A stretch of DNA of 64,000 nt from contig NZ_BPIK01000001.1 of the NCBI RefSeq assembly GCF_026004075.1, forward strand, positions 549,501 through 613,500. The letters run 5' to 3'. This document shows, piece by piece, positions 15,157 to 46,204 of the stretch. A program made the translations under genes and the position numbers. The notes below the pieces were generated by a model, which saw nothing but the letters and a program-made list of their open reading frames with translations, ran no database searches and was not told the origin of the DNA. The number at the start of each line of letters is the position of its first letter. Position 1 is the stretch's first letter. The DNA comes from Meiothermus sp. GTDB taxonomy: Bacteria; Deinococcota; Deinococci; Deinococcales; Thermaceae.

Positions 15157-15181
15157 GGCTATCTCCTTGGCAAGAAACCAG

Positions 15182-18100: not shown

Positions 18101-18772
18101 CTCGTGCACGTCGGTCTGCTCGCCCCAGATTTCGGGGCTGGCGTTGGGTAGGTCGCAGTACCAGTCGTAGAAGCTCATCGGCACGCCCCCAATCAGGCTC
18201 AAGAAACGCGAGCCGGCGGCGTAGCTGATCTGCGACATGGCCGGAATGGGACTAAAGCCGATAATCCGGTCGGGGCCGTATTGCTGGATGGTATGGATTA
18301 GCGAGGCAGAAATAATGTCCAGGGCCTCGTCCCAGCTAAACCGTCTGAAACCCCCCTTGCCCCGTGCCCGCTGCCAGCGTCTGCGCTTCTCGGGGTCGCT
18401 CACCAGGCTCTTCCAGGCGGCTACTGGGTCGGCGTGCTGTTCCCGTGCTTCGCGCCACAGGTCAATGAGCGCGCCGCGCGCGTAGGGATACTTGACCCGG
18501 ATGGGGCTATAGAGGTACCAGGAGTAGCTCACCCCGCGCTGGCAGCCCCGGGGGGTGATGTCGGGCAGGCTGGGGTCTATGGCGGGGTAATCGGTGGCCT
18601 GCAGCTCCCAGGTCACGATACCGTCCTTGACGAAGACCTCCCAGCTACAACTGCCGGTGCAGTTGACCCCGTGGGTGGTGCGCACCCGTTTGTCATGGGC
18701 GAAGCGGTTGCGGTAAAACTCCTCCCACTTGCGTTCGGTGGGGGCTTCCAGTTCCTTGATCCAGTCGCTCAT
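15182..18772 (-). CDS. narG: Respiratory nitrate reductase alpha subunit (molybdenum)
   Basis: NarG reduces nitrate to nitrite at a bis-MGD molybdenum centre on the inner face of the membrane. The 1196-residue protein has the His/Cys ligand set of the FS0 cluster (H34, C38, C42, C77) in HGVNCTGSC and RGCQRG, and the molybdenum-ligand aspartate D203 in [10 protein letters not shown]. Domain order and length match NarG (E. coli 1247 residues). There is no twin-arginine leader, consistent with a cytoplasmic-side enzyme. It overlaps narC by 4 bases (ATGA), so the cytochrome and the catalytic subunit are translationally coupled. Confidence 0.97.
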
Positions 18773-30825: not shown

Positions 30826-30868
30826 GTGAGGTTGGGGCTGAGGTCGCCCAATCGGGTAGTTGTTGCTA

Positions 30869-30910
30869 TATACATTGACGGATTTAGATTTATCAATGTA
30901 TAGTGAACCC
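30869..30910 (+). promoter_or_regulatory. Promoter-operator of the arsR operon (leaderless)
   Basis: TATACATTGA (30869-30878) and TCAATGTATA (30893-30902) form a perfect 10-bp dyad with a 14-bp spacer. Within it lie a -35 TTGACG (30875-30880) and a -10 TATAGT (30899-30904), 18 bp apart. The ATG of arsR follows 6 nt after the -10. A dyad embedding both promoter elements is the expected operator for an ArsR/SmtB repressor, so autorepression relieved by arsenite is likely. Confidence 0.8.
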
Positions 30911-31240
30911 ATGACCCCGGTTCTCCTGCACCCCGAGACGGATTTACTCGAAGCCGCCGCCGAGGTCTTCAAGGCCCTCTCCGACCCGGCCCGGCTCAGG
31001 ATTCTGGCCCACCTGGCCAGGAACCCCCAGGGCGCATGCTGTGGCCCCGAGCCGGGGGTGTGCGCCTGCGACCTCGAGGCCGTCACCGGGCTTTCCCAGC
31101 CCACCGTCTCGCACCACATGAAGTGCCTGGTCTCGGCCCGGCTGGTCAAGGGTGAAAAACGGGGCAGGTGGATGTACTACCAGATTGACCCCCAGGGCTT
31201 CACCTTGGTGAAGGAATTTTTGCCCGCCATCGGCGGCTAG
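30911..31240 (+). CDS. arsR: ArsR-family arsenic-responsive repressor (first copy)
   Basis: A 109-residue winged-helix repressor with the core FKALSDPARLRILAHL and recognition helix LSQPTVSHHMKCLV. Cysteines C43, C44, C51 and C53 lie at the start of and before the second helix of the HTH (GACCGPEPGVCACDLE), a plausible arsenite site related to the classical CVCDL motif. The start at 30911 is set by the promoter, which leaves no room for the longer frame that opens at 30860. It heads a five-gene arsenic operon running to arsC. Confidence 0.93.
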   Translation: MTPVLLHPETDLLEAAAEVFKALSDPARLRILAHLARNPQGACCGPEPGVCACDLEAVTGLSQPTVSHHMKCLVSARLVKGEKRGRWMYYQIDPQGFTLVKEFLPAIGG

Positions 31241-31254
31241 AAAAGGAGAAACCC

Positions 31255-31728
31255 ATGACCACACAGGAACTGCTGAACGCCCTGGCTAAGCACCCGGACA
31301 GGCCCCTGGTCTTCGAGGCCGACGGCCAGACGGTAGCCCCCGGCTACCACGTTACCGAGGTGATGAACGCGACCTACGAGAGCATGGACTGCGGCGGGCA
31401 GGCCAACTTCTGGCGCGAGACGGTGGTGCAGCTCATGGGGCCAGGCCCCGCCGACCCCCCCGAGTTCATGACCGTGCAGAAGTTCCTCGGCATCTACCGC
31501 CGGGTGGCGGCCTCGGTGCCGGTGCGGGACGAGGCCGAGATCCGCTTCGAGTACGGCGATGCCGCACGCCCTGCCGTGCACTACCACGTGGGACAGGTGG
31601 GCTTGCAGGGCGAGTATCTGGTGGTGCGCCTGAGCCCGCCCGGCGTGACCTGCAAGGCCCGCAACCGGGCTTCGGACTGTTGCGGGCCCAAGGCGCTCGA
31701 GCTGGAGGCGGCCCCGCGCTGCTGCTAG
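31255..31728 (+). CDS. DUF6428-family protein of the arsenic operon
   Basis: A 157-residue cytosolic protein. The segment YHVTEVMNATYESMDCGGQANFWRETVVQL matches what I recall of the DUF6428 family, which is often found next to arsenic genes. The C-terminus is cysteine-rich (VTCKARNRASDCCGPK and a final RCC), suggesting thiol coordination of arsenite or metal. An AAAAGGAG ribosome-binding site precedes the ATG, 14 bases after arsR. Function is unknown; an accessory arsenic-binding role is inferred. Confidence 0.75.
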   Translation: MTTQELLNALAKHPDRPLVFEADGQTVAPGYHVTEVMNATYESMDCGGQANFWRETVVQLMGPGPADPPEFMTVQKFLGIYRRVAASVPVRDEAEIRFEYGDAARPAVHYHVGQVGLQGEYLVVRLSPPGVTCKARNRASDCCGPKALELEAAPRCC

Positions 31729-31791: not shown

Positions 31792-32241
31792 ATGATTACC
31801 TACTGCACCGCGACCTCGAGCGACCTACCGGAAGTGCGGGCCCTGCTGGCCGCCGCTGGCCTGCCGAAAGCGGGCCTGGAAGATCACATCCTGAACTTTA
31901 TGCTGGCCCTCGAGGGCGATAAGGTGGTGGGCTGCGCGGGCCTCGAGGCCCACCAGAGCAGCGGCCTTTTGCGCTCGGTGGTGGTGGCCGAGGAATACCG
32001 CGGAATGGGAATTGGGGCCAAGCTTACCGAGGGTATGCTGGATCTGGCCCGCTACAAAAACCTCTCCTCGCTCTCGCTCCTCACCGAGACCGCCGCGGAT
32101 TTTTTCAGCCGCTTCGGTTTTGCTGTGGTTCCACGCGCCGAGCTACCCGCTGCCTTGCATGCTTCCCAGGAACTCCAGGGGGCCTGCCCCGATACCGCCA
32201 TCGCTATGACCCTCTCGCTGACACCCCCATCCGAAGCCTGA
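31792..32241 (+). CDS. arsN2: GNAT acetyltransferase, arsenic-associated (ArsN2-like)
   Basis: A 149-residue GNAT-fold enzyme with the acetyl-CoA-binding motif VVVAEEYRGMGIGAKL (about residues 61-76) and a C-terminal FFSRFGFAVVPRAELP. ArsN2 proteins have the same length and wording, including DLPEVRALLAAAGLP at the start, and are encoded in arsenic operons. Related ArsN1 enzymes acetylate organoarsenical antibiotics; the substrate of ArsN2 is not established. GGGGGAA precedes the ATG, 63 bases after the DUF6428 gene. Confidence 0.85.
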   Translation: MITYCTATSSDLPEVRALLAAAGLPKAGLEDHILNFMLALEGDKVVGCAGLEAHQSSGLLRSVVVAEEYRGMGIGAKLTEGMLDLARYKNLSSLSLLTETAADFFSRFGFAVVPRAELPAALHASQELQGACPDTAIAMTLSLTPPSEA

Positions 32242-32291: not shown

Positions 32292-33536
32292 ATGGCCCGT
32301 TCCATACCGCCTCCCAATGGCTTTTACGGCTGGCGCATCGCCTGGGCCCTGGCCCTGACCCAGACCATTGGCTTTGGGGTGCTGTACTACGCCTTTGGGG
32401 TGTTCGTAAAGCCCATGGAGGCCGAGCTGGGCTGGAGCCGGGCCGAGACCTCGGCGGCCTTCTCGCTGGCTTTGCTGGTCTCGGGGCTGGCCGCCTTTCC
32501 GGTCGGGCGCTGGTTCGACCGGCACGGGGCTCGAGGCCTCATGACCGCGGGCTCCATCTGGGGCGCTTTGCTGGTCTGGGGCTGGGCCCAGGTGCAAAAC
32601 CTCACGGTGTTTTACCTGCTCTGGGCGGGCCTGGGCCTGGCCATGGCCATGGTGCTCTACGAGGTGGCTTTCGCGGTGCTGGCGGTCTGGTTCCGCCGCT
32701 ACCGCCCCCGGGCCATGCTGGTCGTAACCCTGATGGCCGGGCTGGCCAGCACCATCTTCGTGCCGCTAAGCACCTGGCTGGTGCAGGCCGTGGGCTGGCG
32801 CGGGGCGCTGGAGATACTGGCCCTCATCTTTGCCCTGGGCACCATTCCCCTGCACGCGCTGGTTTTGCGGCGCCGCCCGGAGGATATCGGGCAGCGACCC
32901 GACGGCGAGTTTTTTTTGGACAGCTCGAGCCGCCCTGCACCCGAACCCGGCGTGAGCGTTAAGGAAGCCCTGCGTCGGCCCACGTTCTGGTGGCTTTCGC
33001 TGGGGTTTGCCCTTTCCCGAGCCACCAGTATCGCCCTTACCGCCCACATGGTGCCCCTGCTCCTCGAGAAGGGCTATAGCCCGGCGCTGGCCGCCACCGC
33101 CGCCGGGATGGTCGGGGTGATGCAGTTGGCCGGGCGGATTCTCTATACCCCTTTTAGCCAGAGGGGCTCGCTCTTTTACCTGAGCGCGGCCTTTCTGGGC
33201 GGCTACACCCTGAGTCTGCTGGGCTTGCTGTGGGTTCCGGGGGGGCTTGGGCTCTGGGCCTTTGTGTTGTTTTTTGGCCTGGCCAACGGCTCCATATCCC
33301 TGGCCAAACCGGCTCTGATTGCCGAGACCTACGGGGCCAAACATTACGGCAGCATCAACGGCAGCATGACCTCCATCATCGCAGTTGCCCAGACCATCGC
33401 CCCTTTTGGGGCCGGCGCACTGCACCAACTCACCGGCGGCTACAACGCTGTGCTATGGGTATTTGCCGCCCTGGCCGCGGCCTCGGCCCTGGCCATTGCG
33501 CAGGCCCAGCCCAAACCTGATCACCCTATGACATGA
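32292..33536 (+). CDS. MFS transporter in the arsenic operon
   Basis: A 414-residue major facilitator protein with 12 predicted helices, starting GFYGWRIAWALALTQTIGFGVLYYAFGVFVKPMEAELGWSR-type motif (typical of monocarboxylate/oxalate-like MFS proteins). The loop 2-3 motif is VGRWFDRHGARGL and the central loop is about residues 195-225. MFS proteins of this kind in arsenic operons have been described as arsenite exporters (ArsK) or, when next to a GAPDH gene, as ArsJ. No GAPDH gene is present, so arsenite or an organoarsenical is the likelier substrate. No ArsB or Acr3 gene is in the window. Confidence 0.85.
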   Translation: MARSIPPPNGFYGWRIAWALALTQTIGFGVLYYAFGVFVKPMEAELGWSRAETSAAFSLALLVSGLAAFPVGRWFDRHGARGLMTAGSIWGALLVWGWAQVQNLTVFYLLWAGLGLAMAMVLYEVAFAVLAVWFRRYRPRAMLVVTLMAGLASTIFVPLSTWLVQAVGWRGALEILALIFALGTIPLHALVLRRRPEDIGQRPDGEFFLDSSSRPAPEPGVSVKEALRRPTFWWLSLGFALSRATSIALTAHMVPLLLEKGYSPALAATAAGMVGVMQLAGRILYTPFSQRGSLFYLSAAFLGGYTLSLLGLLWVPGGLGLWAFVLFFGLANGSISLAKPALIAETYGAKHYGSINGSMTSIIAVAQTIAPFGAGALHQLTGGYNAVLWVFAALAAASALAIAQAQPKPDHPMT

Positions 33537-33565: not shown

Positions 33566-34036
33566 GTGCGTATTCTGGTGCTCTGTACCCACAACTCGGC
33601 CCGCAGCCAGATGGCCGAAGGGTGGCTGCGCTACTGGGCCAGCCGCCTGGGCTTTCCCTGCGAGGTCTGGTCGGCGGGCACCGAACAAACCTTTGTGAAG
33701 CCCGACGCCATCGCGGTGATGCAGGAGGTGGGCATAGACCTGGGCGGGCATACCTCCAAAACCCTCTTCGACCTGCCCGACCCCTGGAACTTCGATCTGG
33801 TGCTTACCGTCTGCGACGCGGCCGCCGAAAACTGCCCGGCCTACCCGGCCAAAACCCACCGGCTGCACGTGTCCTTCCCCGACCCTACAGGTAAGGGTTT
33901 GGAGGAATGGCGCAGGGTGCGCGATGCCCTGGGCCGGATGTCCGAGCACCTGATCCGGAGCCTCCAGAAAGGCCAAATCCCCACCGAAGCCGATTTGCTC
34001 GAGGCCGCCGGGCTCGAGCAGGAGCAGGCCACCTGA
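33566..34036 (+). CDS. arsC: Arsenate reductase, thioredoxin-coupled LMW-phosphatase type
   Basis: ArsC reduces arsenate to arsenite in the cytosol. The 156-residue protein starts MRILVLCTHNSARSQMAEG, with the P-loop nucleophile C7 in the CX5R motif, the DP pair in FPDPTG, and the resolving cysteines C83 and C90 in LTVCDAAAENCP, as in the Staphylococcus/Bacillus and Thermus enzymes that are recycled by thioredoxin. The start is GTG at 33566, with GATAAT 8 nt upstream, so it may also be transcribed on its own. It closes the first arsenic operon. Confidence 0.95.
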   Translation: MRILVLCTHNSARSQMAEGWLRYWASRLGFPCEVWSAGTEQTFVKPDAIAVMQEVGIDLGGHTSKTLFDLPDPWNFDLVLTVCDAAAENCPAYPAKTHRLHVSFPDPTGKGLEEWRRVRDALGRMSEHLIRSLQKGQIPTEADLLEAAGLEQEQAT

Positions 34037-34474: not shown

Positions 34475-34500
34475 CCCAATTGACCCCAACCTCCCCTGCG

Positions 34501-34527
34501 AAAGCGCCCCCAAGGCGCTTTTTTTTG
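34501..34527 (+). terminator. Rho-independent terminator
   Basis: AAAGCGCC / GGCGCTTT forms an 8-bp perfect stem with a 5-nt loop and continues into an eight-T run. It ends the 89-residue gene and insulates the molybdoenzyme operon from the first arsenic operon. Confidence 0.95.
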
Positions 34528-34571
34528 CTTGCAGGGGCTTTATGGGGACAAAAGACCTAGGACAACTGACC

Positions 34572-34606
34572 TGCCTCCTCCGGCTATCTTATATAGCGAG
34601 GAGGCA
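34572..34606 (+). promoter_or_regulatory. Hairpin/palindrome covering the ribosome-binding site of the molybdoenzyme operon
   Basis: TGCCTCCTC (34572-34580) is the exact complement of GAGGAGGCA (34598-34606), and GCTAT (34583-34587) pairs with ATAGC (34593-34597) inside it. The right arm is the ribosome-binding site (GAGGAGG), 4 nt before the ATG at 34611. The loop includes TATCTT and TATATAG, which could instead be a -10. It is therefore either an RNA hairpin that hides the ribosome-binding site or a DNA operator over the promoter. Confidence 0.55.
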
Positions 34607-34610
34607 AAGT

Positions 34611-35504
34611 ATGCCAGAAAACAATTCCACGCAACCCAGTGCGGATGGGTTGGAGAACCGAAGGGCCTTTCTGGGTAAATTCGCCAGTGCGGTGTTTGCC
34701 GGGATGGTGCTGGGGGGCGCTCCGGTCAAGGCCGAGGAAAGTAAGACCACCTTTGCGCTGCCGAGCAGAAGCCCCGACGGCCCCATTCGGCCCGAGCTCG
34801 AGTACGAAGACGTACTGGTGAGGATGCAGCGGGAGCTCGAGGCGGCCCTCGAGCGACCCATCCAAAAGTGGGTCATGGTGATTGATACCCGCAAGTGTGT
34901 GGGCTGCCACGCCTGTACCATCGCCTGCGCAGTGGAGAACAAACTGCCTCCCGGAGTGGTCTACCGCCCTGTCATCGAAGAGCAGATAGGCGAGTACCCC
35001 AATGTCTCCTGGCGCTTCACCCCCCGCCCCTGCATGCAGTGCGATAAACCGCCCTGCGTGCCGGTCTGCCCGGTAGGGGCCACCTGGAAGAGCGCCGACG
35101 GCATCGTGGACATTGACTACAACGCCTGCATCGGCTGCCGCTACTGCCTCACGGCTTGCCCCTACCAGGCCCGCACCTCCGACTTTGGCGACCACTGGAC
35201 CGACGGCACCCCCGGCCAGGGCCAGATGCCCTACGAGGAACTGCCCATGTTCGAATACGGCAAGGAGTGGAAGCGGGATGGTCATAAAAGCCCGGTAGGC
35301 AACGCCCGCAAATGCCATTTCTGCCGTCACCGCCTGCAACAGGGCCTGCTACCCCAGTGCACCACAAGCTGCATCGGGCGGGCCACCTTTTTTGGCGATG
35401 CCAACGACCCCAATTCCTTGGTATCGCAGCTCATCCACAAACCCAACGCCACCCGGCTCAAAGAAGAACTCGGTACCGAGCCACGGGTCTACTACCTGGT
35501 CTAG
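34611..35504 (+). CDS. Molybdoenzyme iron-sulfur subunit (four-cluster, TtrB/PsrB type)
   Basis: A 297-residue electron-transfer subunit. A twin-arginine-like leader ([16 protein letters not shown], residues 16-31) suggests export with the catalytic subunit. Four cysteine groups follow: [11 protein letters not shown] (C96-C106), [30 protein letters not shown] and CHFCRHRL...CTTSC, giving four [4Fe-4S] clusters as in PsrB, TtrB and ArrB. It passes electrons between the NrfD anchor and the molybdenum subunit. The start at 34611 has GAGGAGG upstream. It is followed 9 bases later by the anchor gene. Confidence 0.9.
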
Positions 35505-35513
35505 GAGGGAAGC

Positions 35514-36638
35514 ATGAACCGCACAACTGGTTGGATTTTGTTTGCGATCCTGGCCGTGGTGGGACTGGTCGGAGTTTTTCTGCGCTTCACCAGCAGCCGC
35601 GACCTGGCTGCGTACGGCAGCTACATTCCCTGGGGTCTGTGGGTGGCTACCTACATCTTCTTCGCGGGCCTTTCGGCCGGGGCCTATGTGGTCGCGGTGC
35701 TGGGGCACGTGTTTGGCGTGGAAAAACTCAAACCGCTGGCCCCGCTGTCCCTGGCCATCGCCCTGGCCTGCCTGGGGGCGGCCCTGGTTACGGTCTGGTT
35801 CGATCTGGGGCACATGGAACGGGTCTTCAATGTCTTTTTGCGGCCTCATTTCACCTCCATGATGGCCTGGATGGTCTGGCTCTACACGGCCTATGCCATA
35901 ACGGTCTTGCTGGCCCTGTACGGCTTGTGGCGTGGCAACCTCAACCTCACCCGAATGGCCCTGACCATAGGCACCCCGCTGGTGGTCTTCTATCCGGGGG
36001 CCGCCGGGGCCCTGTTCGGTACGGTGGTGGCCCAGAGCCTCTGGCATAGCCCGGTCTTTCCCATCCTGTTCTTGTTTGGGGGGGTGCTCTCGGGGGTGGC
36101 CCTGGTCACCTTTGCCAGTGCCTTCTTCACCCGCCGCAACGACCCCGGCTACCCAGAGCGCATCCACCTTTTGGGGCGCATCACCCTGGGGTTGGCTGTG
36201 CTGTACTTGCTCCTGGAGTGGGCCGAATACTCCATCCCGATGTGGTATCAGGTAGGGCATGAGTTTGAGGCGCTGATGGGCGTACTCTTCGGGCCCTTCT
36301 GGTTTGTGTTCTGGATCTTCCACCTGCTGCTGGGAATGGCCGTGCCCATCTTCCTGCTGGCCCGCTACCCACGCAACCCTGTGGCAGTGGGGTGGGCGGG
36401 CTTTTTGGCGGCCTCCATGTTCTTGGCGGTGCGTTTGAACCTGGTCATTCCCAGCCAGGTGCAACCGCAGCTCGAGGGTCTGGTCAACGCCTACCGCGAC
36501 CGCCGCTTGAGCTATAGCTACGTTCCAACCCTGTTTGAGTGGTCGGTGGTGGCTTTTTCGGTGGCGCTGGCCATTGCCATTGCCTATGCCGTGATCTGGT
36601 TCTTGAACCGTGAGAAGAAGCTCGAGGTGACCCAATGA
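35514..36638 (+). CDS. NrfD/PsrC-family quinol-interacting membrane anchor
   Basis: A 374-residue integral membrane protein with about nine predicted helices, of the NrfD/PsrC/TtrC family that exchanges electrons with the quinone pool. The early motif SYIPWGLWVATYIFFAGLSAGAY (about residues 36-58) is typical of the family. It has no heme-ligand pattern. A GGAGGG ribosome-binding site precedes the ATG. The stop overlaps the start of the catalytic subunit by 4 bases (ATGA), so the FeS subunit, anchor and catalytic subunit form one operon. Confidence 0.92.
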   Translation: MNRTTGWILFAILAVVGLVGVFLRFTSSRDLAAYGSYIPWGLWVATYIFFAGLSAGAYVVAVLGHVFGVEKLKPLAPLSLAIALACLGAALVTVWFDLGHMERVFNVFLRPHFTSMMAWMVWLYTAYAITVLLALYGLWRGNLNLTRMALTIGTPLVVFYPGAAGALFGTVVAQSLWHSPVFPILFLFGGVLSGVALVTFASAFFTRRNDPGYPERIHLLGRITLGLAVLYLLLEWAEYSIPMWYQVGHEFEALMGVLFGPFWFVFWIFHLLLGMAVPIFLLARYPRNPVAVGWAGFLAASMFLAVRLNLVIPSQVQPQLEGLVNAYRDRRLSYSYVPTLFEWSVVAFSVALAIAIAYAVIWFLNREKKLEVTQ

Positions 36639-39600
36639 AAGGTATTCAACGACGCGACCTGCTCAAGCTAGGGGCCTTGGGGGGTGGGGCGGCCCTGTTG
36701 GGTAAGCAAGCCGCCGAGGTGCTTCAGGCCAGCGCCGCTACCGTCCCCGGCAGCTACCCCATCCAGGAGCCCGAAAATACCCTGTACTCGGTTTGCTTGC
36801 AGTGCAACACCGGCTGCCCCATCAAGGTCAAAATCTACGAAGGGGTGGCAGCCAAAATTGACGGTAACCCCATCACCCCCTGGACCATGTACCCGCACCT
36901 GCCGTACAAAACCGATCTCAAAGACATGGCCCACGTGGACGGGGCGCTATGCCCCAAGGGGCAGTCGGGCATTCAGACCGTCTACGACCCCTACCGCATC
37001 CGCAAGGTGCTCAAGCGGGCCGGGCCGCGCGGCAGTGGTAAATGGGTGGAGATCCCCTTCGAACAGGCCATCCAGGAGATTGTGGAGGGCGGCCAGACCT
37101 TTGCCTCCATCGGGGATCAGCGCCGCTACCCCGGCCTCAAGGAGTACTGGGCCCTGCGCGACCCCAAGGTGATGAAGGCCATGAGCAAGGCAGTGGATGC
37201 CATCTGGGCCGAGAAGGACAAGGACAAGAAAAAAGCCCTGGTCGAGCAGTTCAAGGTAGAGTTCAAGGATCACCTCGACACCCTTATTGACCCCGATCAC
37301 CCCGACCTGGGCCCCAAGAACAACCAGGTGGTTTTCAACTGGGGGCGGCTCAAGGGCGGGCGCTCCGACTTCTTCAAGTGGTTCTTCGAGCAAAGCTTCG
37401 GTACGGTCAACCTGCACGGCCACACCACCGTCTGCCAGGGCTCGCTCTACTTCACCGGCAAGGCCATGAGCGAGCAGCTCGACTTCGACGAGAAAAAGGG
37501 CAAGTTCGACTGGACCGGCGGTAAGAAGTTTTACTGGCAGGGCGACCTGAGCGGGGCCGAGTTTGCCATTTTTGTGGGCTCCAACGTGTACGAAGGGGGC
37601 TATGGCCCGCCCCTGCGGGTCAACCGAATTACTCAGGCCGTTACCGAGGGCAAGCTCAAGTTTGTGGTGATAGACCCCCGTGCCCAAAAAGCCGTAGCCC
37701 ACGCGGCCAAATGGATTGCCCCCAAACCCGGCACCGACGCGGCCATCGCCCTGGGCATGATTCGCTGGATTCTGGATAATGGCCGCTACGACGCCAAATA
37801 CCTCTCGGCAGCCAACAAAGCCGCCGCCAAGGTCATAGGCGAACCCACCTGGAGCAACGCCACCTGGCTGGTCAAGCTGGACGACAAAGGCTTCCCGGCC
37901 AAGCTGCTGCGGGCCAGCGACCTGGGCCTGCCCCCTTTTAGCAAAACCGTCAAGGACGTAACCACCGAGTTCGACCCGCCCATCGCGCTGGTCAAAGGGG
38001 TTCCTACCCGCATAGACGTGCAGAGCGAGGACACCCCGGTGGTGGGGGATTTGTTCGTCAACACCACCCTGGGTGGTATCCGGGTTAAGAGTGCTTTGCA
38101 GCTCATCCGCGAGGAAGCCAACAAGCAGAGCCTCGAGGGCTGGGCAGAAATTGCCGGCATCCAACCCGAGGACATCGCCTGGCTGGCCTTCGAGTTCACC
38201 AACCACGGCAAGCGGGCCGCCATTGACATACACCGGGGGGTTAGCCAGCACACCAACGGCTTCTACAACGTGCTGGCCTGGTACACCCTGGGGGCCCTGA
38301 TTGGCAGCCACGACTGGCAGGGCGGTTTGGTGCAAAACAGTACCTACGACGCCCTGGGCGAGAAAGCCGAAGGCCCCTTCTTCCTCAAGGAGCTGCACCC
38401 CAAAAAGCTCTCTCCCTTCGGTATCTCCATCATCCGCCACGGCATCAAGTACGAGAACACCACCCTCTTCGAAGGCTATCCGGCCAAGCGCCCCTGGTAC
38501 TACAACGCCTCCGACGTGTATCAGGAAGTACTGCCCTCGGCAGCCCAGGGCTACCCCTACCCCATCAAGATTCTCTTCCACTACATGGGCTCCCCGGCCT
38601 ATGCCCTGCCGGCAGGCCAGACCCAGATCGAGGCCATGCTCGACCCCGACAAGATTGGGCTGATTGTGGCCTCGGATATCGTGGTGGGGGATACCTATGC
38701 CTACGCCGACTATATCTTCCCCGACCTGTCGTACCTCGAGCGCTGGGAGTTCCACGGCTCACACCCCAACGTGATCTGGAAAACCCAGCCCCTGCGCCAG
38801 CCGACCATTGCCCCCATACCCGAAACCGTGCAGGTTTTTGGCGAGGAGATGCCCCTCTCGATGGAGGCTATGCTGTTGGGGCTGGCCGAAAAGCTGGGCC
38901 TGCCGGGCTTTGGGGAACAGGGCTTCGCCAACGGTATGCCCTTCAAACGGCCCGAAGACTTCTACCTGAAAATGGTGGCCAACCTGGCCTACGGCGAGGC
39001 CAAAGATGGCAGCAAAGCGGTACCCGAGGCCAACGACGAGGAGCTCGAGCTCTTTGTCCGTGCCCGCCGACACCTGCCCAAGAGCGTTTTCGACCTCGAG
39101 AAATGGAAGGCCGCCATCGGCGAAGAACACTGGCGGCGGGCGGTGTACGTCATGAACCGGGGCGGTCGCTTCGAGGACTTCAAGAAGGCCTTTGCCGAAG
39201 ATGGCACGGTAGCCCATAAATACGGTAAGCAGATCAACCTGTACTTAGAAAAACAGGCCGGGGCCAAAGACGCTATGACCGGGAAGCCCTACTACCCCAT
39301 TGCGGCCTACTTCCCGGCCTACCTGGATGCCACCGGCCAGCCCATCGCCGACACCGAGGAAGGCTTCGAACTCACCCTGATCACCCACCGCATCATCACC
39401 ATGACCAAGAGCCGCACCGTCTCGAACTACTGGCTGCTGAACGTGCAACCGGAAAACTTCATTGCCGTACCCAAAGAAGACGCAGAGCGCCTGGGGCTGC
39501 GCGACGGCCAGATGGTCAAGGTGGTCTCCAAAAGCAACCCCGAAGGGGTCTGGGAGCTGGGGAACGGCAAGAAAAAACCCATGATCGGCAAGGTCAAGGT

Positions 39601-39841
39601 TGTGCCCGGCCTGCGCCCGGGAAACGTGGCCTTTTCGCTGGGCTATGGTCACTGGGTCTATGGTGCTACCGACCTCGAGGTCAACGGCCAGGTGATCAAG
39701 GGCGACCCCCGCCGGGCTACCGGCATCCACGCCAACGCCGCTATGCGGGTTGACCCGGTACTCAAGGATGTAACCCTCTCCGACCTGACCGGCGGTAGCG
39801 CGGTCTTCTACGACAGCAAGGTGCGTCTGCTCCCTGTGTAG
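36635..39841 (+). CDS. Molybdopterin oxidoreductase catalytic subunit, TtrA/SrrA-like
   Basis: A 1068-residue exported molybdoenzyme. It has a twin-arginine leader (RRDLLKLGALGGGAALLG), a [4Fe-4S] motif C54-x2-C57-x3-C61...C106 (CLQCNTGC, ALCPKGQ), and a probable molybdenum-ligand cysteine C267 in HGHTTVCQGS. Length and the roughly 75-residue charged insertion before the cysteine (about 160-235) point to the tetrathionate/selenate-reductase branch rather than PsrA/PhsA (about 760) or classical ArrA (about 850). Possible acceptors are tetrathionate, polysulfide, selenate and arsenate. Its enclosure by arsenic genes on both sides favours arsenate, but this is inference. Confidence 0.85.
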   Translation: MKGIQRRDLLKLGALGGGAALLGKQAAEVLQASAATVPGSYPIQEPENTLYSVCLQCNTGCPIKVKIYEGVAAKIDGNPITPWTMYPHLPYKTDLKDMAHVDGALCPKGQSGIQTVYDPYRIRKVLKRAGPRGSGKWVEIPFEQAIQEIVEGGQTFASIGDQRRYPGLKEYWALRDPKVMKAMSKAVDAIWAEKDKDKKKALVEQFKVEFKDHLDTLIDPDHPDLGPKNNQVVFNWGRLKGGRSDFFKWFFEQSFGTVNLHGHTTVCQGSLYFTGKAMSEQLDFDEKKGKFDWTGGKKFYWQGDLSGAEFAIFVGSNVYEGGYGPPLRVNRITQAVTEGKLKFVVIDPRAQKAVAHAAKWIAPKPGTDAAIALGMIRWILDNGRYDAKYLSAANKAAAKVIGEPTWSNATWLVKLDDKGFPAKLLRASDLGLPPFSKTVKDVTTEFDPPIALVKGVPTRIDVQSEDTPVVGDLFVNTTLGGIRVKSALQLIREEANKQSLEGWAEIAGIQPEDIAWLAFEFTNHGKRAAIDIHRGVSQHTNGFYNVLAWYTLGALIGSHDWQGGLVQNSTYDALGEKAEGPFFLKELHPKKLSPFGISIIRHGIKYENTTLFEGYPAKRPWYYNASDVYQEVLPSAAQGYPYPIKILFHYMGSPAYALPAGQTQIEAMLDPDKIGLIVASDIVVGDTYAYADYIFPDLSYLERWEFHGSHPNVIWKTQPLRQPTIAPIPETVQVFGEEMPLSMEAMLLGLAEKLGLPGFGEQGFANGMPFKRPEDFYLKMVANLAYGEAKDGSKAVPEANDEELELFVRARRHLPKSVFDLEKWKAAIGEEHWRRAVYVMNRGGRFEDFKKAFAEDGTVAHKYGKQINLYLEKQAGAKDAMTGKPYYPIAAYFPAYLDATGQPIADTEEGFELTLITHRIITMTKSRTVSNYWLLNVQPENFIAVPKEDAERLGLRDGQMVKVVSKSNPEGVWELGNGKKKPMIGKVKVVPGLRPGNVAFSLGYGHWVYGATDLEVNGQVIKGDPRRATGIHANAAMRVDPVLKDVTLSDLTGGSAVFYDSKVRLLPV

Positions 39842-39921: not shown

Positions 39922-39965
39922 TTGAACGGTGCGGGCTGGACTAGTATATTTCAACCATGGTTGAA
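39922..39965 (+). promoter_or_regulatory. Promoter and palindromic operator of the second arsR operon
   Basis: TTGAAC (39922-39927) and TATATT (39945-39950) are 17 bp apart, and the ATG follows 6 nt after the -10. The perfect 16-bp palindrome TTCAACCATGGTTGAA (39950-39965) starts at the last base of the -10 and includes the start codon. A further half-site GTTGAACC lies at 39974-39981. Repressor binding here would block both initiation and early elongation. Confidence 0.8.
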
Positions 39966-40295
39966 TCAATGACTGTTGAACCATCCGGCCTTGCGCCCCA
40001 AAATGGGTTACAGAGGGGCTTTCAGGCTCTCTCCGACCCCACCCGATTGCGCATACTGGGCCTACTGGAAAGTGGCACGCGCTGCGTCTGCGAACTCCAG
40101 AGCGGCCTTCCCGAGGTGGCCCCCAACCTGCTCTCGCATCACCTGCGGGTTCTGCGGGAGGCTGGGCTGGTGCACGCAGTACGACGGGGACGCTGGATTG
40201 ACTACGCACTGAACGCCGAAGCCCTCGAGCAGCTCCGAAACGCCATCCCCCGCCCGAGGGCTTTTTCTACTGCCTGCACCTGTGAGGATCTATGA
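39957..40295 (+). CDS. arsR: ArsR-family repressor (second copy)
   Basis: A 112-residue winged-helix repressor. FQALSDPTRLRILGLLESGTRCVCELQ carries the classical arsenite-sensing CVC motif (C43, C45) at the start of the DNA-binding helices, followed by NLLSHHLRVLREAGLV as recognition helix. A second C-x-C pair (C107, C109) is at the C-terminus, close to the end. The start is set by the leaderless promoter and by the palindrome over the start codon. It is coupled to the permease gene by an ATGA overlap. Confidence 0.93.
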   Translation: MVESMTVEPSGLAPQNGLQRGFQALSDPTRLRILGLLESGTRCVCELQSGLPEVAPNLLSHHLRVLREAGLVHAVRRGRWIDYALNAEALEQLRNAIPRPRAFSTACTCEDL

Positions 40296-41329
40296 ATACC
40301 CTGCGTCTGAGCAAACCCTCCCCCTGGATTGGCCTGGGGTTGGCCGCGCTGGCCTGGATAGTGCTGTACCGCTCGATTCTGCCCTTCTGGGACTGGGTGG
40401 TGTACGGGCTGCTGGGCCTGCGCGCAGACACCCGGCTGGGCGAGGCGGTGCACTTCTTCCTCTATGACACCAGCAAGATTGTGCTGCTGCTCTGCGCGAT
40501 TATCTTCGTGGTGGCGGTGCTACGGAGCTTTTTCAGTCTCGAGCGCACCCGAAATCTGCTGGGTGGCCGGCGGGCCGGGGTGGGCAACCTGCTGGCCGCC
40601 ATCTTGGGGGTTGTCACGCCATTTTGTTCGTGCAGTGCGGTTCCGGCTTTCATTGGCTTTGTCTCGGCGGGTGTGCCCCTGGGCATCACCCTCACCTTTC
40701 TGATTGCCAGCCCCATGGTCAACGAGGTGGCCCTGGTGCTGCTCTATACCCTGTTTGGCTGGAAAATTGCCGCACTGTATCTGGTTTCCGGTCTGGTTCT
40801 GGCCATAGGCGCTGGGCTGGTGCTGGGCCGCATGGGCCTCGAGCGCTACGTGGAGCCCTTTGTCTATCAGACCAAAGTGGGCAAAACCAGCTTCGACCCC
40901 GCCCTGGGCATGCGCTGGGAAGAGCGCTTTGCCGTGGGTCTCGCCGAGGTTAAGAGCATCCTGGGCAAGATCTGGCCCTACCTGCTTTTGGGCATTGGGC
41001 TGGGGGCGGTGATTCACGGCTGGGTTCCGGCGGACTTGTTCGCCCGCTATGCCGGGCCCGAGAACCCCCTGGCGGTGTTGTTGGCGGTGCTGCTGGGCAT
41101 CCCGCTTTATTCCAACGCGGCGGGCATTCTGCCGCTGGTGGAAGTTTTGCACCAGAAGGGCATTCCGATGGGCACCCTGCTGGCCTTCATGATGGCGGTG
41201 GTGGCCCTTTCCCTGCCCGAGATGATTCTGCTGCGGCAGGTGCTCAAGCTGCGCCTGATTGCTATCTGGGTAGCGGTGGTGGGCCTGGGCATCGTGCTAA
41301 CTGGCTACTTGTTCAACGCGGTTTTGTAG
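40292..41329 (+). CDS. arsP: ArsP-type permease (UPF0718/DUF318)
   Basis: A 345-residue membrane protein with about 8-10 helices and the diagnostic motif TPFCSCSAVPAFIGFVSAGVPLG (C112, C114), followed by LIASPMVNEVAL and a second repeat near GIPLYSNAAGILPLVE. ArsP members export trivalent organoarsenicals through such a cysteine pair, and related permeases sit in arsR-permease-thioredoxin units. The cargo could be methylarsenite or another arsenic species; no arsM methyltransferase is in the window. It lies between arsR and the thioredoxin-like gene in one operon. Confidence 0.87.
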   Translation: MNTLRLSKPSPWIGLGLAALAWIVLYRSILPFWDWVVYGLLGLRADTRLGEAVHFFLYDTSKIVLLLCAIIFVVAVLRSFFSLERTRNLLGGRRAGVGNLLAAILGVVTPFCSCSAVPAFIGFVSAGVPLGITLTFLIASPMVNEVALVLLYTLFGWKIAALYLVSGLVLAIGAGLVLGRMGLERYVEPFVYQTKVGKTSFDPALGMRWEERFAVGLAEVKSILGKIWPYLLLGIGLGAVIHGWVPADLFARYAGPENPLAVLLAVLLGIPLYSNAAGILPLVEVLHQKGIPMGTLLAFMMAVVALSLPEMILLRQVLKLRLIAIWVAVVGLGIVLTGYLFNAVL

Positions 41330-41338
41330 GAGGAAGTT

Positions 41339-41620
41339 ATGAATATCGAATCGGAAATGCCTACCCCTTCGAGCCCAGCCCACATCAAGGTCTTGGGGCC
41401 CGGCTGCAAAAACTGCCAGTTGCTCGAGACCCACGTCAAGCTGGCCCTGGAACGCATGGGCAAGAACCTCGAGGTGGAAAAAGTTACCGAGATTCCCCAA
41501 ATCCTGGCCTACGGGGTGATGAAAACCCCCGCACTGGTAATTGGGGACGAGGTGGTGGTCTCGGGCTTTGTGCCCTCCCCAAGGCAGATTCAGGAGATGC
41601 TCGAGGCACGGCTGGCCTAG
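41339..41620 (+). CDS. Small thioredoxin/glutaredoxin-like protein of the arsP operon
   Basis: A 93-residue redox protein of the MTH895/TM0996-like thioredoxin family. C23-x2-C26 (GPGCKNCQLLE) is the active site, and VMKTPALVIGDEVVVSGFVPS contains the cis-proline and the typical C-terminal strands. An AGGAGGAAG ribosome-binding site precedes the ATG, 9 bases after arsP. Such proteins accompany ArsP-type permeases and may deliver reductant or bind thiol-arsenic adducts; this role is inferred. Its end overlaps the convergent third arsR by 4 bases. Confidence 0.88.
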   Translation: MNIESEMPTPSSPAHIKVLGPGCKNCQLLETHVKLALERMGKNLEVEKVTEIPQILAYGVMKTPALVIGDEVVVSGFVPSPRQIQEMLEARLA

Positions 41621-41943
41621 CCGACCTCGAGCTTTAAGGCCTTGTGGGCTTGCTTGAGATAGTCCAGGTCGTGTAGCAGCCCCTCGATACCCGCAGGGTG
41701 CAGACGGTAGTACGACCAGCGCCCCGCCCGCACCACCTCAATTAATCCCGCTTCGCGCAGGATTTTCAGGTGGTGGCTCACCGTAGGGGCAGATAACCCC
41801 AGCCGCTCGGTCAGATGGCAAAAACAAGCCCCCAAGGCTGTGCCACAGCGGGGGTCGCGCACCGTGTGTTCATCAGGCAGCTCGGCCAGAATCCGCAACA
41901 AACGCACCCGGGCCGGGTCGGCCAGGGCTTTGAAGCGCTGCAC
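41617..41943 (-). CDS. arsR: ArsR-family repressor (third copy)
   Basis: A 108-residue winged-helix repressor, FKALADPARVRLLRILAELPDEH, with C33, C40 and C42 in RCGTALGACFCHLTE just before and in the DNA-binding region, and recognition helix LSAPTVSHHLKILREAGLI. The GTG start at 41943 has TAGATT 6 nt upstream (leaderless). The IS element begins about 50 bases upstream; before its insertion this regulator would have faced aioBA across a shared divergent region, which suggests it controlled arsenite oxidase. It is single-gene and convergent with the thioredoxin-like gene. Confidence 0.88.
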   Translation of the reverse strand: MQRFKALADPARVRLLRILAELPDEHTVRDPRCGTALGACFCHLTERLGLSAPTVSHHLKILREAGLIEVVRAGRWSYYRLHPAGIEGLLHDLDYLKQAHKALKLEVG

Positions 41944-41993: not shown

Positions 41994-42816
41994 TAGAGCA
42001 TGAACCGCCGTGCTTACCCATCGGACGTCCGTGATGAGGAATGGGCTCTGGTGCTGCCCTATTTGACCCTCGCCCCGCTGGAAGCACCCCAGCGCAAGTA
42101 CGACCTGCGCGAAGTGTTCAACGCCCTGCGCTGGATGGTTCGAACCGGTGCTCAGTGGGACTACCTGCCCCACGACTTCCCACCCCCCCATATCGTTCAG
42201 GCGCAAGCCTACCGCTGGATGAACCGGGGGGTCTTCGAAGACCTGGTACACGACCTGCGCATGACCCTGCGAATGCTCCAGGGCAAAGCCGCCCATCCCA
42301 GCGCTGCCATCTACGATGCTCGCACCCTACAGTCCACCCCGCAAAGTGGGGAGCGGGCCGGATACGATGGGTACAAACGACGCAAGGGAAGCAAAGTTCA
42401 CCTGGCGGTAGATACCCTGGGGCATCTGCTGGCCCTGGTAGTAACGGCGGCCAGTGAACAGGAACGGGCCCAGGTGGGAGCCCTCAGTCAACAGGTGCAG
42501 GAAGTGACGGGGGAGCAGGTGGAAGTGGCCTTTGTGGATCAGGGTTACACTGGGGAGGAAGCGGCACAAGCGGCAGAGGCGGAAGGCATCGCCCTGTGTG
42601 TGGTCAAGGTGGAAGGGGCCAAACGAGGATTCGTGCTGCTGCCGAAGCGTTGGGTGGTGGAACGTTCGTTTGCCTGGACATCCCGGTTTCGCAGGCTGGC
42701 GCGAGACTATGAGCGGCTGGCTGAGACCTTGCGAGGTTGGCACTGGTTGGCTTTTTCGATTCTGATGACAGCGAAAACTGTGGAGCTTTTACGAACAGCT
42801 AGTTAGCAGGCTCTAG
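41994..42816 (+). mobile_element. IS5-family insertion sequence
   Basis: An element of roughly 0.82 kb carrying one intact transposase gene. The boundaries are approximate: TTAG-AGCATG on the left and, on the opposite strand, CTAG-AGCCTG on the right give a short terminal inverted repeat (AGC-x-TG) and possible 4-bp YTAR-type flanks, with one mismatch. It sits between arsR and aioBA inside the arsenic island. Confidence 0.7.
42000..42806 (+). CDS. IS5-family transposase
   Basis: A 268-residue, single-frame DDE transposase. The catalytic residues are visible as D106 (IYDARTLQ), D180 (FVDQGYTG) and E221 (WVVERSFAW, followed by the R-x7-K/R-type YERL segment). The N-terminal [17 protein letters not shown] and [24 protein letters not shown] motifs are typical of the IS5 group related to IS1031/IS427-like elements. 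The frame is uninterrupted, so the element is potentially active. It points toward aioBA. Confidence 0.92.
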
Positions 42817-43134
42817 GCGCTCGTTCATCAAGAAGTTAGCATACTCGAACTACGTTACCTTTGCCAGAGAAATTTCACTTTCGGATATCGGTTTACCTAA
42901 ATCGACTTCAGGGCAGGGTTGCCGATAGCTTTGCACATAATAATTGCTTTCACAAAAAGGAATGATCGCTTATGTATTGATTTTTGTATGACATTAAACC
43001 CGTAGTATTCGGAAATTCTCGTGTTGCATAGTCTTGCAATACGATATTGACATTTGCCTATTCAATTCGAAGATAATAGAACCCGTCCAGTAAGTATCGA
43101 ACAATGGACATAGCAACCACAAGTGGAGGTACTT
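42817..43134 (+). promoter_or_regulatory. AT-rich aioBA upstream region with a dyad and a TTGACA box
   Basis: These 318 bases contain no gene and are far more AT-rich than the rest of the window. The dyad TTGCA-N6-TGCAA (43024-43039) has the spacing of Crp/FNR-family sites. It is followed by TTGACA (43047-43052) and, 19 bp later, GATAAT (43072-43077). A GGAGGT ribosome-binding site lies 4-5 nt before the aioB ATG at 43135. The -35/-10 spacing is long, which would suit an activator-dependent promoter. Confidence 0.5.
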
Positions 43135-43614
43135 ATGGTGGTAAACCGTAGGCGTGTGGTACAGGTGTTGGGTGGGGTCACCATGGCCTCGCTCACCGGC
43201 GCAGGAAAGGCGCAGTTCTGGTTCGCCCCCAGCCTGACCTATCCAGCCATTAAAGTTGGCAACGTCAATACCCTCAAAAACAACGAGCCGGTCTACTTCA
43301 ACTATCCCGATGCCCGCTCGCAAGGCATCCTGGTCAAGCTGGGCAGGCCGGCTATTGGGGGTGTGGGCCGTGGTCGCGATATTGTGGCATTCTCGGCAGC
43401 CTGTACCCACATGGGCTGTGGGGTGCAGTACAAAGACGGGCGCTTCCTATGTCCCTGCCACTACTCGATGTTCGACCCCGCTAAAGCGGCAGCCGTCTAC
43501 CAGGGTCTGGCCAGCACCGGGCTGCCCCAGATTCAGCTAGGGGTGGCACAAAACGGGGACATTTTTGCTCGAGCCGTCAACGGCCTGATCTGGGGCCGCG
43601 TAAAAAACATCTGA
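43135..43614 (+). CDS. aioB: Arsenite oxidase small subunit (Rieske)
   Basis: AioB carries the [2Fe-2S] Rieske cluster that takes electrons from the arsenite oxidase large subunit. The 159-residue protein has a twin-arginine leader ([11 protein letters not shown]), ligands C90 and H92 in ACTHMGC and C106 and H109 in CPCHYS, plus the disulfide pair C95 and C108. The motif wording [10 protein letters not shown] and [10 protein letters not shown] is specific for AioB. The start is the ATG after GGAGGT. It precedes aioA by 10 bases, the usual aioBA order. Confidence 0.95.
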
Positions 43615-43624
43615 GGGAGGAACC

Positions 43625-46204
43625 ATGAGCAACATCGGACGTCGCGACGCACTGCCCATCCCCCCGACCACCGCAGAGGTGAAAAACACGGTCTGCCAGT
43701 ACTGCACGGTGGGGTGCGGCTACAAGGTGTACACCTGGCCGGTAGGTTCCCAGGGGGGGTTGGCCGCTAACCAGAATGCTTTTGGCGTGGATCTGCGCAA
43801 CCCGCAGAACCCCCTGGGCGGGCTGGTCTACACCGAGACCATGCACTCGATTGTGACACGCAAGGATGGTCGCCAGTACCACGTGGTGATCGTGCCGGCC
43901 AACGACTCGCCCATCAACCTCAAGCGCGACCACTCCTCGCGTGGGGCGACCAATGCCATTGCCACGTGGAGTGATGCGCGGGCTACCCGTGAACGTTTGA
44001 AGTACCCCTTGCTGCGCATGGGCGACCAGTTCCAGGTGATTACCTGGGACGAAGCCCTGACCATCCTGGCCGGGGTGGCCAAAGGCATCCGCGACCGCGA
44101 TGGCAACGACGACGCTATCGCCGTCAAAGCCTTCGACCACGGGGGCTCGGGAGCCGGCTTCGAGAACAACTGGGGTGTGGGCTCGCTCTTCTTTAAAGGC
44201 TTCAGCGTCAAGCACATCGCCATCCACAACCGCCCGGCCTACAACTCCGAGGTCTGGGGCAGCCGCGAGCGGGGGGTGCACGAGCTCAACTACGACGCCA
44301 TTGATGCCCGCCTGGCCGATACCATCGTGCTGTGGGGCGCCAACCCCTACGAAACCGCCAGCGTCTTCTACACCGAGCACATGCTGCCCAACTTCCAGGG
44401 GGCCACCCTGGCCGAAAAGCAGAAGGAGCTGAGCCGCGGCGAGCCGGTTGAGGCGGGGTATCTGATTGTCATTGACCCGCGCCGTACCAGCAGCCTGACC
44501 GTGGCCGAGACGGTCGCCAGTGGCCGCACGCTGCACCTGGCCCCTAACCTGGGCACCGACTACATCCTGGCCAACGCCATTGCGCGGGTGATGTGGGAGC
44601 GCAAGTACTACGACCAGCGTTTCCTCGAGACCCGCACCGACATGGCCAAGTTCGAGGAGTACAAAGCCAAGAGCCTGAAGGTGGGGGTGCCCTACGCCCA
44701 GTTCATGGCCGAGGTGGAAAAAATCACCGGGGTCAAGCGCGCCGACATCGAAAAAGCCGCAGACTGGATTGCCAAACCCAAAGCCGGAGGCTTTGCCCGC
44801 CGTACCCTGACCATCTACGAAAAAGGCATCATCTGGAATATGAAAAACTACGACCAGGTGGCGGCCATCGTGCAGATGGCGGTGTTGGGCAACAACGTGG
44901 GCCGGGCCGGTACCGGCTGCGGGCGCCTGGGCGGCCACCAGGAGGGCTATGTGCGTCCCCCTTCGCCTACCCCTGGCTCGATTTACAACGGGGGGCCTCC
45001 GGTCAACGTCGACAAGTACCTCACCGATGGCAACGGCAAGCTCTACTGGGTGATCGGCACCAACCCCTACCTCTCCACCCCCAACAACCAGCTTTTCCGC
45101 AAGCGTATTCGCGAGCGCACCAAGGCCTTGTCGGACTACCTGGGCCAGTCTGGCGAACCCGGCACCACGCAGGAGCTGGTCAATAAGATTGTGGAGGGCC
45201 TGTACGCTATCAACGGGCTGTTTATGGTGGTGCAGGATCTCTACCTGACCCACACTGCCCAGGATGCCCACCTGGTGCTGCCGGCCAGTGCCTGGGGCGA
45301 GGCCAACCAGACCTCCATCAACTGCAACAGCCGCTTGCTGCGCCTGTATGAGAAGTTCATGGATCCGCCCGGCGAGGCCAAACAAGACTGGGAGATCTGC
45401 AAACTGATGGGCCTTAAGATGGCCGAGCTGTACCGGGCCGAGGGCAAGGAGGAGGAAGCCAAACGCTTTGAGTTCGGCAAGAACTGGCGCACCGACGAAG
45501 ATGTCTTCCTGGATGGTGGTAACTCCTACCCCAACAACGCCATCCCCGCCAGCGAGGAGGCCACCCTGCCCGCCGAGTGCTATAAAGGTGTTACCTACGC
45601 TTTCTTGCGCCAGGTGGGCCAGCAAGGCATCCGCACGCCGGTGCGCGTCGAAAACGGTAGGCCGGTGGGCACCCTGCGCCGCTACAGCGTGAAGTTCGGC
45701 ACCAAGGACGGCAAGTTTAGCTGGTACGGCACCGACGACTGGGAAGGCTACCCCGAGGAGGTTGCCAAGTACCTCGAGGGCGACAAAGCCAAGCAGTACC
45801 CCTTCTGGATGACCTCCGGACGGGCCCAGGCCATCTGGCAGACCATGTACAACGACCGCTTCCTGCCCGAGAAGATGAGTCTGGTACCCATGCCCTACAT
45901 CGAGATCAGCCGCCAGGACGCCCAGGCCCTGGGTGTGAAGGGCGGCGACCTAGTGCAGGTCTGGAACGAGGAGGGCAACGGTACCTTTGTGGTCTACGTG
46001 ACCGATGCGGTCAAACCGGGCATGATTTTTGCTCTAATGTACCACCACCTGGGCACCTCCAACAGCATGACCTCCGGCTACACCGACCCCAAGACCACCA
46101 TCCCCTGGTACAAAGGTACGCGCGTGGCCATCCGCAAGGTGCGGGGTGCTTTGCCCGACCTGCAGCAGTCCACCAGCTTCCTGCAGCAGAACAAGTTCGA
46201 TTAA
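43625..46204 (+). CDS. aioA: Arsenite oxidase large subunit (molybdenum)
   Basis: AioA oxidises arsenite to arsenate in the periplasm at a bis-MGD molybdenum centre. The 859-residue protein has the [3Fe-4S] motif C24-x2-C27-x3-C31 (VCQYCTVGCGYKVY) without a fourth cysteine, as expected for AioA, and no Cys/Ser/Asp ligand at the usual position. GGSGAGFENNWGVG and HIAIHNRPAYNSE are typical segments of the family. It has no leader of its own and is exported with AioB by the twin-arginine route. It is followed by a strong terminator. A c-type cytochrome acceptor is usual but not encoded next to it. Confidence 0.97.
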   Translation: MSNIGRRDALPIPPTTAEVKNTVCQYCTVGCGYKVYTWPVGSQGGLAANQNAFGVDLRNPQNPLGGLVYTETMHSIVTRKDGRQYHVVIVPANDSPINLKRDHSSRGATNAIATWSDARATRERLKYPLLRMGDQFQVITWDEALTILAGVAKGIRDRDGNDDAIAVKAFDHGGSGAGFENNWGVGSLFFKGFSVKHIAIHNRPAYNSEVWGSRERGVHELNYDAIDARLADTIVLWGANPYETASVFYTEHMLPNFQGATLAEKQKELSRGEPVEAGYLIVIDPRRTSSLTVAETVASGRTLHLAPNLGTDYILANAIARVMWERKYYDQRFLETRTDMAKFEEYKAKSLKVGVPYAQFMAEVEKITGVKRADIEKAADWIAKPKAGGFARRTLTIYEKGIIWNMKNYDQVAAIVQMAVLGNNVGRAGTGCGRLGGHQEGYVRPPSPTPGSIYNGGPPVNVDKYLTDGNGKLYWVIGTNPYLSTPNNQLFRKRIRERTKALSDYLGQSGEPGTTQELVNKIVEGLYAINGLFMVVQDLYLTHTAQDAHLVLPASAWGEANQTSINCNSRLLRLYEKFMDPPGEAKQDWEICKLMGLKMAELYRAEGKEEEAKRFEFGKNWRTDEDVFLDGGNSYPNNAIPASEEATLPAECYKGVTYAFLRQVGQQGIRTPVRVENGRPVGTLRRYSVKFGTKDGKFSWYGTDDWEGYPEEVAKYLEGDKAKQYPFWMTSGRAQAIWQTMYNDRFLPEKMSLVPMPYIEISRQDAQALGVKGGDLVQVWNEEGNGTFVVYVTDAVKPGMIFALMYHHLGTSNSMTSGYTDPKTTIPWYKGTRVAIRKVRGALPDLQQSTSFLQQNKFD

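Follow-up and report, generated by a model that had tools for sequence, protein, structure and literature searches.

A TtrA-family molybdoenzyme operon among arsenic genes of Meiothermus is a candidate respiratory arsenate reductase

Which enzyme could reduce arsenate in Thermaceae that respire it without arr genes? Arsenate-respiring Thermus isolates have been known since 2001, Thermus HR13 respires arsenate, and reading of the T. scotoductus genome revealed no arr genes (PMC3235269). Our search of Thermaceae genomes likewise found no ArrA, in agreement with an earlier note on this DNA, which had suspected arr-free arsenate respiration among Thermus relatives. We analyzed the 64,000-nucleotide stretch containing the locus (the window), which belongs to a 2.5-Mb contig from a hot-spring Meiothermus and in which a three-gene operon, ttrBCA, lies among arsenic genes. 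From what was observed, namely the genes and their domains, the clade, the neighbourhood and the statistics of co-occurrence, we consider it likely that ttrBCA encodes a quinol-dependent respiratory arsenate reductase of a distinct TtrA-family clade, periplasm-facing and membrane-anchored. We infer the substrate from kin, sensors and neighbours; direction, quinol coupling and energy conservation are proposed.

The genes lie in the order ttrB-ttrC-ttrA on the plus strand (34611-39841), as the earlier note had described. Window coordinates of the operon and its 5' elements are as follows.

34500-34522, plus strand: terminator-like hairpin with a T run, at the end of the upstream ars unit
34523-34610, plus strand: leader and predicted promoter of ttrBCA (promoter position inferred)
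34611-35504, plus strand: ttrB-like Fe-S subunit with four [4Fe-4S] clusters and a leader of twin-arginine translocation (Tat) type; start supported by GAGGAGG and the lengths of relatives
35514-36638, plus strand: ttrC-like NrfD-type membrane anchor, quinol side (PF03916, Pfam NrfD, 111 bits)
36635-39841, plus strand: ttrA-like molybdenum bis(pyranopterin guanine dinucleotide) (Mo-bisPGD) catalytic subunit of 1068 residues, with Mo ligand Cys267 in HTTVCQGS

The ttrB reading frame is open from 34542; because GAGGAGG sits directly 5' of position 34611 and the length agrees with Meiothermus relatives, we retained 34611 as the start. The 4-base overlap between ttrC and ttrA indicates one operon. 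The ttrB-like product contains four cysteine clusters and a Tat-like leader (NRRAFLG), while the ttrA-type product carries the Tat leader QRRDLLKLG and the cluster motif CLQCNTGC...C. The components of a complex iron-sulfur molybdoenzyme are thus all present: a Mo-bisPGD subunit with an N-terminal [4Fe-4S] cluster, a four-cluster subunit and a membrane anchor. No substitution of Cys267, His263 or a cluster cysteine occurs in 23 relatives drawn from many phyla, which excludes chance and bears out the earlier proposal of Cys267 as the probable Mo ligand. An AlphaFold model of the catalytic subunit (predicted local distance difference test, 82; predicted template-modelling score, 0.86) showed the expected fold. 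Its top Foldseek match was ArrA (6cz7); perchlorate and nitrate reductases scored nearly the same, so the comparison has no power to tell substrates apart.

The arsC gene and a small ORF are set apart from ttrB by the hairpin at 34500-34522, and the flanking ars genes are therefore probably transcription units separate from ttrBCA. A GGACAACTG element 5' of ttrB is common to five Meiothermus loci (the window and L037-L040) and is probably a promoter or regulator site. A hairpin that could sequester the Shine-Dalgarno sequence before ttrB (34572-34606) was discarded, since it is not kept in four other Meiothermus.

The catalytic subunit matched the TtrA model best among curated models (NCBIfam NF011567), at 445.6 bits against a cut-off of 1750; the PhsA and ArrA models ranked far below, with ArrA (NF041714) at 75.6 bits against 1600. 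The enzyme is thus non-classical, as the earlier note had held, and assignment to ArrA or ArxA was ruled out by score. The note had also placed it in a tetrathionate/selenate branch with SrrA. The TtrA-family part of this placement stands; SrrA belongs to the Psr/Phs branch, and the selenate reductase of the same broad family as TtrA is SrdA (PMC7331816).

Among 111 Deinococcota genomes searched, 27 carry the ttrA-type gene, and the same gene was found on a Meiothermus hypogaeus contig (L065). Scanning GTDB genomes gave 425 confirmed stretches, and the 80 that were kept come mostly from metagenome-assembled genomes spread over many phyla. The analysis used 79 relatives on genome contigs, those nearest to the query. 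FastTree and IQ-TREE trees of 122 rows agreed. The Meiothermus and Thermus genes form one clade (support 1.0), nested in an 82-row clade of the TtrA family (support 0.986) to which the two TtrA proteins of Anaeromyxobacter PSR-1 and that of Melioribacter roseus also belong. Citrobacter freundii TtrA lies outside it, as do the Pyrobaculum clade and an enterobacterial plasmid enzyme linked to arsenic. Forcing the Thermaceae into a joint clade was rejected by the approximately unbiased (AU) test both with TtrA sensu stricto (p-AU 3e-5) and with the Pyrobaculum type (p-AU 7e-5). The Mo-ligand region GHTTVCQGSLYF is unlike that of TtrA (H-G-S/A-Y-C-G) or Pyrobaculum (HTSxCQLG), and 26 positions near-invariant in the 82-row clade are missing from TtrA proper. 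Arg-534 and Arg-927 were considered as arsenate-specific residues and rejected: they are absent from TtrA sensu stricto and present in ArrA, but also in Thermus PsrA.

The enterobacterial plasmid enzyme represents a lineage apart from the window enzyme. On the Citrobacter arsenatis conjugative plasmid NZ_CP037863.1 (L145:6476-12408), a TtrBCA-like operon is divergent from arsRDABC, and the whole block occurs on eight plasmid records of Citrobacter, Salmonella and Enterobacter.

The nearest studied relatives are linked to arsenate respiration, which makes ttrBCA a candidate for its arr-free form. Anaeromyxobacter PSR-1 respires arsenate without arr genes (PMC4432346), and our own search for arr in PSR-1 found none. 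Its two TtrA copies, on one contig, share 55% and 52% identity and the HTTVCQGS motif with the window enzyme. The title of Muramatsu 2020 (cited in PMC10149662) ties a PSR-1 Ttr homolog to arsenate reduction, and that homolog has been described as lacking tetrathionate reductase activity (PMC9751629); which copy was meant is indifferent to clade membership, as both belong to the 82-row clade. PSR-1 differs from the window in its flanking ars and aio genes and in having an ArrX-type sensor with the pocket Cys beside the operon, whereas the window operon has no sensor-kinase-regulator set. The two PSR-1 operons stand side by side with the sensor between them (L111:7300-21425). M. roseus TtrA (MROS_1076; 54% identity) has the BCA gene order of the window and, as a further likeness, an ArsR(CVC)-ArsP-thioredoxin-ACR3 cluster divergent from the ttr operon; unlike the window, its locus retains a sensor-kinase-regulator set and lacks aioBA. 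The M. roseus ttrA mRNA was near zero without arsenate and rose with it (PMC5492636).

Other known systems are more distant. The alternative arsenate reductase of Pyrobaculum aerophilum is a TtrA-family enzyme of the same broad candidate type; however, it shares 31% identity, lies in the other half of the family tree and has the motif HTSACQLG. We take genome G218 to be P. aerophilum, because its purB product is identical at 402 of 403 residues to 1DOF, which presumably comes from that organism. Citrobacter/Salmonella TtrABC shares the subunit set, BCA order and fold type, but its TtrA has 30% identity, another Mo motif and 116 residues between the fourth cluster Cys and the Mo Cys, compared with 161 in the window enzyme; its TtrSR regulators were not found at the window operon. 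ArrAB (6cz7) has the same fold and the reaction proposed here, with 24% identity (ArrA homolog) and an arrAB arrangement in place of an NrfD-anchored BCA operon.

A substrate hint independent of the enzyme sequence came from genes beside the operon. In relatives from many phyla, a sensor-kinase-regulator set adjoins ttr, and the loci studied contain 45 adjacent periplasmic PhnD-fold binding proteins, usually with a histidine kinase and a response regulator. The pocket residues named for AioX, ArxX and ArrX (PMC5908839), namely Cys, Tyr, Ser, His and Asp, are kept in 45/45 of these sensors and in 0/2 TtrS controls. The best solved-structure match of a Thermus sensor was ArrX (E 9e-23), then AioX, with TtrS at 0.37; M. 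roseus carries this type of set too, with AFICT. Characterised ArrX bound arsenate and phosphate, not selenate or tetrathionate (PMC5908839). Because the sensors had been grouped by similarity, the result indicates one arsenic-type family rather than a sensor at every operon: 27 of 79 relatives have one in the fetched flanks. The set is frequent in the clade (in Thermus and many relatives) and not universal.

Thermus loci such as L044:5553-6380 (minus strand) carry an aioX/arrX-type sensor gene set; aioXSR genes had been reported from Proteobacteria only (PMC3834237). At L093:316-7101, two tandem sensor-kinase-regulator sets precede one ttrBCA-ACR3-arsR-thioredoxin-ArsP cluster.

The arsenic neighbours were confirmed, including those that the earlier note had named (arsC, arsR-arsP and aioBA): ttrBCA sits between ArsC and arsR-arsP-thioredoxin, with aioBA 3.8 kb further on.

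30860-31240, plus strand: ArsR with GVCACDL motif, first gene of the upstream ars unit
31255-31728, plus strand: DUF6428 protein
31792-32241, plus strand: ArsN2-type acetyltransferase (152 bits, curated cut-off 125)
32292-33536, plus strand: ArsK-like major facilitator superfamily transporter (181 bits, below the cut-off of 400)
33566-34036, plus strand: ArsC-type cytoplasmic arsenate reductase of the low-molecular-weight phosphatase family (under the NCBIfam cut-off, over the Pfam cut-off)
39957-40295, plus strand: ArsR with TRCVCELQ arsenite-site-type motif
40292-41329, plus strand: ArsP-type permease (PF03773, 245 bits)
41339-41620, plus strand: ArsE/MTH895-type thioredoxin-like protein (92 bits, cut-off 62)
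41617-41943, minus strand: ArsR with GACFCHL motif, divergent toward aio
42000-42806, plus strand: IS5-family transposase
43123-43614, plus strand: aioB, Rieske subunit of arsenite oxidase (190 bits, cut-off 96)
43625-46204, plus strand: aioA, arsenite oxidase large subunit (1180 bits, cut-off 359)

A small ORF follows ArsC in the upstream ars unit, before the hairpin. All three ArsR proteins of the window have a CxC motif (CVC, CFC or CAC), which we take to be of the arsenite-site type. Further away, respiratory nitrate reductase genes narG and narH occupy 13648-18772 on the minus strand, about 16 kb from ttrBCA.

The association with arsenic genes extends beyond the window. Relatives in unrelated phyla lie beside ars genes, with specific ars genes in the fetched flanks of 14/79, and across 50 host genomes 4/26 strong ACR3 genes were no more than 10 kb from the operon, where 0.15 would be expected (p=2e-5). 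Within Deinococcota, aioA is present in 23/27 genomes with the operon and 5/84 without it (p=4e-15); the corresponding figures are 13/15 and 0/12 in Thermus (p=5e-6), and 6/6, one copy being truncated, and 4/12 in Meiothermus (p=0.011). In four Meiothermus, aioA is 3-8 kb from the operon; in seven genomes from Thermus and its sister genus, the distance is 9-36 kb. The outcome that the earlier note had named as refuting, a place in a characterised tetrathionate- or polysulfide-reductase clade together with no arsenic neighbours in other genomes, was looked for and did not occur. Placement apart from TtrA sensu stricto, together with arsenic neighbours in other genomes, leaves the earlier suggestion of respiratory arsenate reduction supported by kinship, ars genes and ArrX-like sensors near relatives.

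Meiothermus G027 (L041:9666-11290) has lost ttrB and ttrC, its ttrA is missing the first 597 residues, and the ars and aio genes are retained.

We propose that the NrfD subunit would oxidise menaquinol and accept its electrons, the Fe-S subunit would relay them via its four clusters, and the Mo-bisPGD subunit, through Cys267, would turn arsenate into arsenite outside the cytoplasm at low oxygen. Neighbouring ars genes would handle arsenite entering the cell. Since aioBA would use oxygen to run the reaction the other way, the strain could alternate between arsenite oxidation and arsenate respiration.

Several observations weigh against this proposal. No sensor set adjoins the operon in the window or the other Meiothermus loci, and elsewhere in the genome of the window a search gave only weak generic matches to ArrX-type sensors. 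The induction of M. roseus ttrA was not significant, psrA alone being individually significant, and its authors regard TtrA as auxiliary (PMC5492636). The co-occurrence figures are inflated by shared ancestry, the 79 relatives are those closest to the query, and arsenate reduction by a Thermaceae enzyme is so far a prediction. Four Meiothermus loci (L037:12901-14896, L038, L039 and L040) have TauE and a small conserved 114-residue protein adjoining the operon, with OsmC also in three of them. In Thermus, the aio-linked copies (L048-L057) consist of ttrBA with no NrfD gene and possibly use another electron partner; after them come genes for two small membrane-like proteins, a DOMON protein and a YeeE/YedE-type sulfur transporter. 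A TtrA-type protein is abundant in Desulfolithobacter during thiosulfate disproportionation (PMC9751629).

Such sulfur-handling genes beside some relatives make a substrate of sulfur or arsenic-sulfur type the main rival. A reductase of tetrathionate, thiosulfate or polysulfide located by chance in an arsenic island would fit these genes, the Desulfolithobacter protein, the family name and the best curated model. We nevertheless regard it as unlikely: the match lies far below the TtrA cut-off, a joint clade with TtrA sensu stricto is rejected, the Mo-ligand motif and the 26 clade positions differ, and the adjacent sensors carry the arsenic rather than the TtrS pocket. In addition, the ArsR beside the TauE-OsmC genes, in the three TauE-bearing loci where one was called nearby, has the CVC motif, in contrast to the ArsR next to an operon of TtrA sensu stricto, and sulfur, thiosulfate and sulfite gave M. 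roseus no better growth. Thioarsenates are common in sulfidic hot springs, and relatives can have both arsenic and sulfur genes as neighbours; these points, with SrdA in the same broad family, could suit an enzyme that reduces selenate, antimonate or thioarsenate where hot water is rich in arsenic. The ArrX-like sensors, given the ligands of characterised ArrX, and the lack of any selenium-specific gene close to ttrBCA in the window make that reading improbable. More improbable still is an anaerobic arsenite oxidase running in reverse, with electrons passing through quinone to the nitrate reductase encoded at about 13.6-18.8 kb of the window. As ArxA illustrates, enzymes closely related to arsenate reductases can function as oxidases (PMC7331816), and NrfD is missing from the aio-linked Thermus copies; but aioBA already serves the same genomes, and reduction is the reaction to which the relatives in PSR-1 and M. 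roseus have been linked.

Respiratory arsenate reduction thus remains the preferred reading, and ttrBCA is a well-supported, concrete and deletable candidate for arr-free arsenate respiration in Thermus and Meiothermus. The idea of a "TtrA-type" arsenate reductase has been published for P. aerophilum, M. roseus and PSR-1 and is little studied; the Thermaceae case is new. Whether the clade, which by record titles spans at least 15 phyla, serves arsenate respiration as a second dedicated system, with an ArrX-type arsenic sensor of its own, is nearly an even question, which we would answer slightly in the negative. Annotations of its members usually read tetrathionate reductase or generic molybdopterin oxidoreductase; if the proposal is true, surveys using the arrA marker miss the clade and underestimate arsenate release in hot and deep settings.

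An intein-bearing DnaB helicase adjoins the ttr locus of Thermus arciformis (L042:7398-9497).

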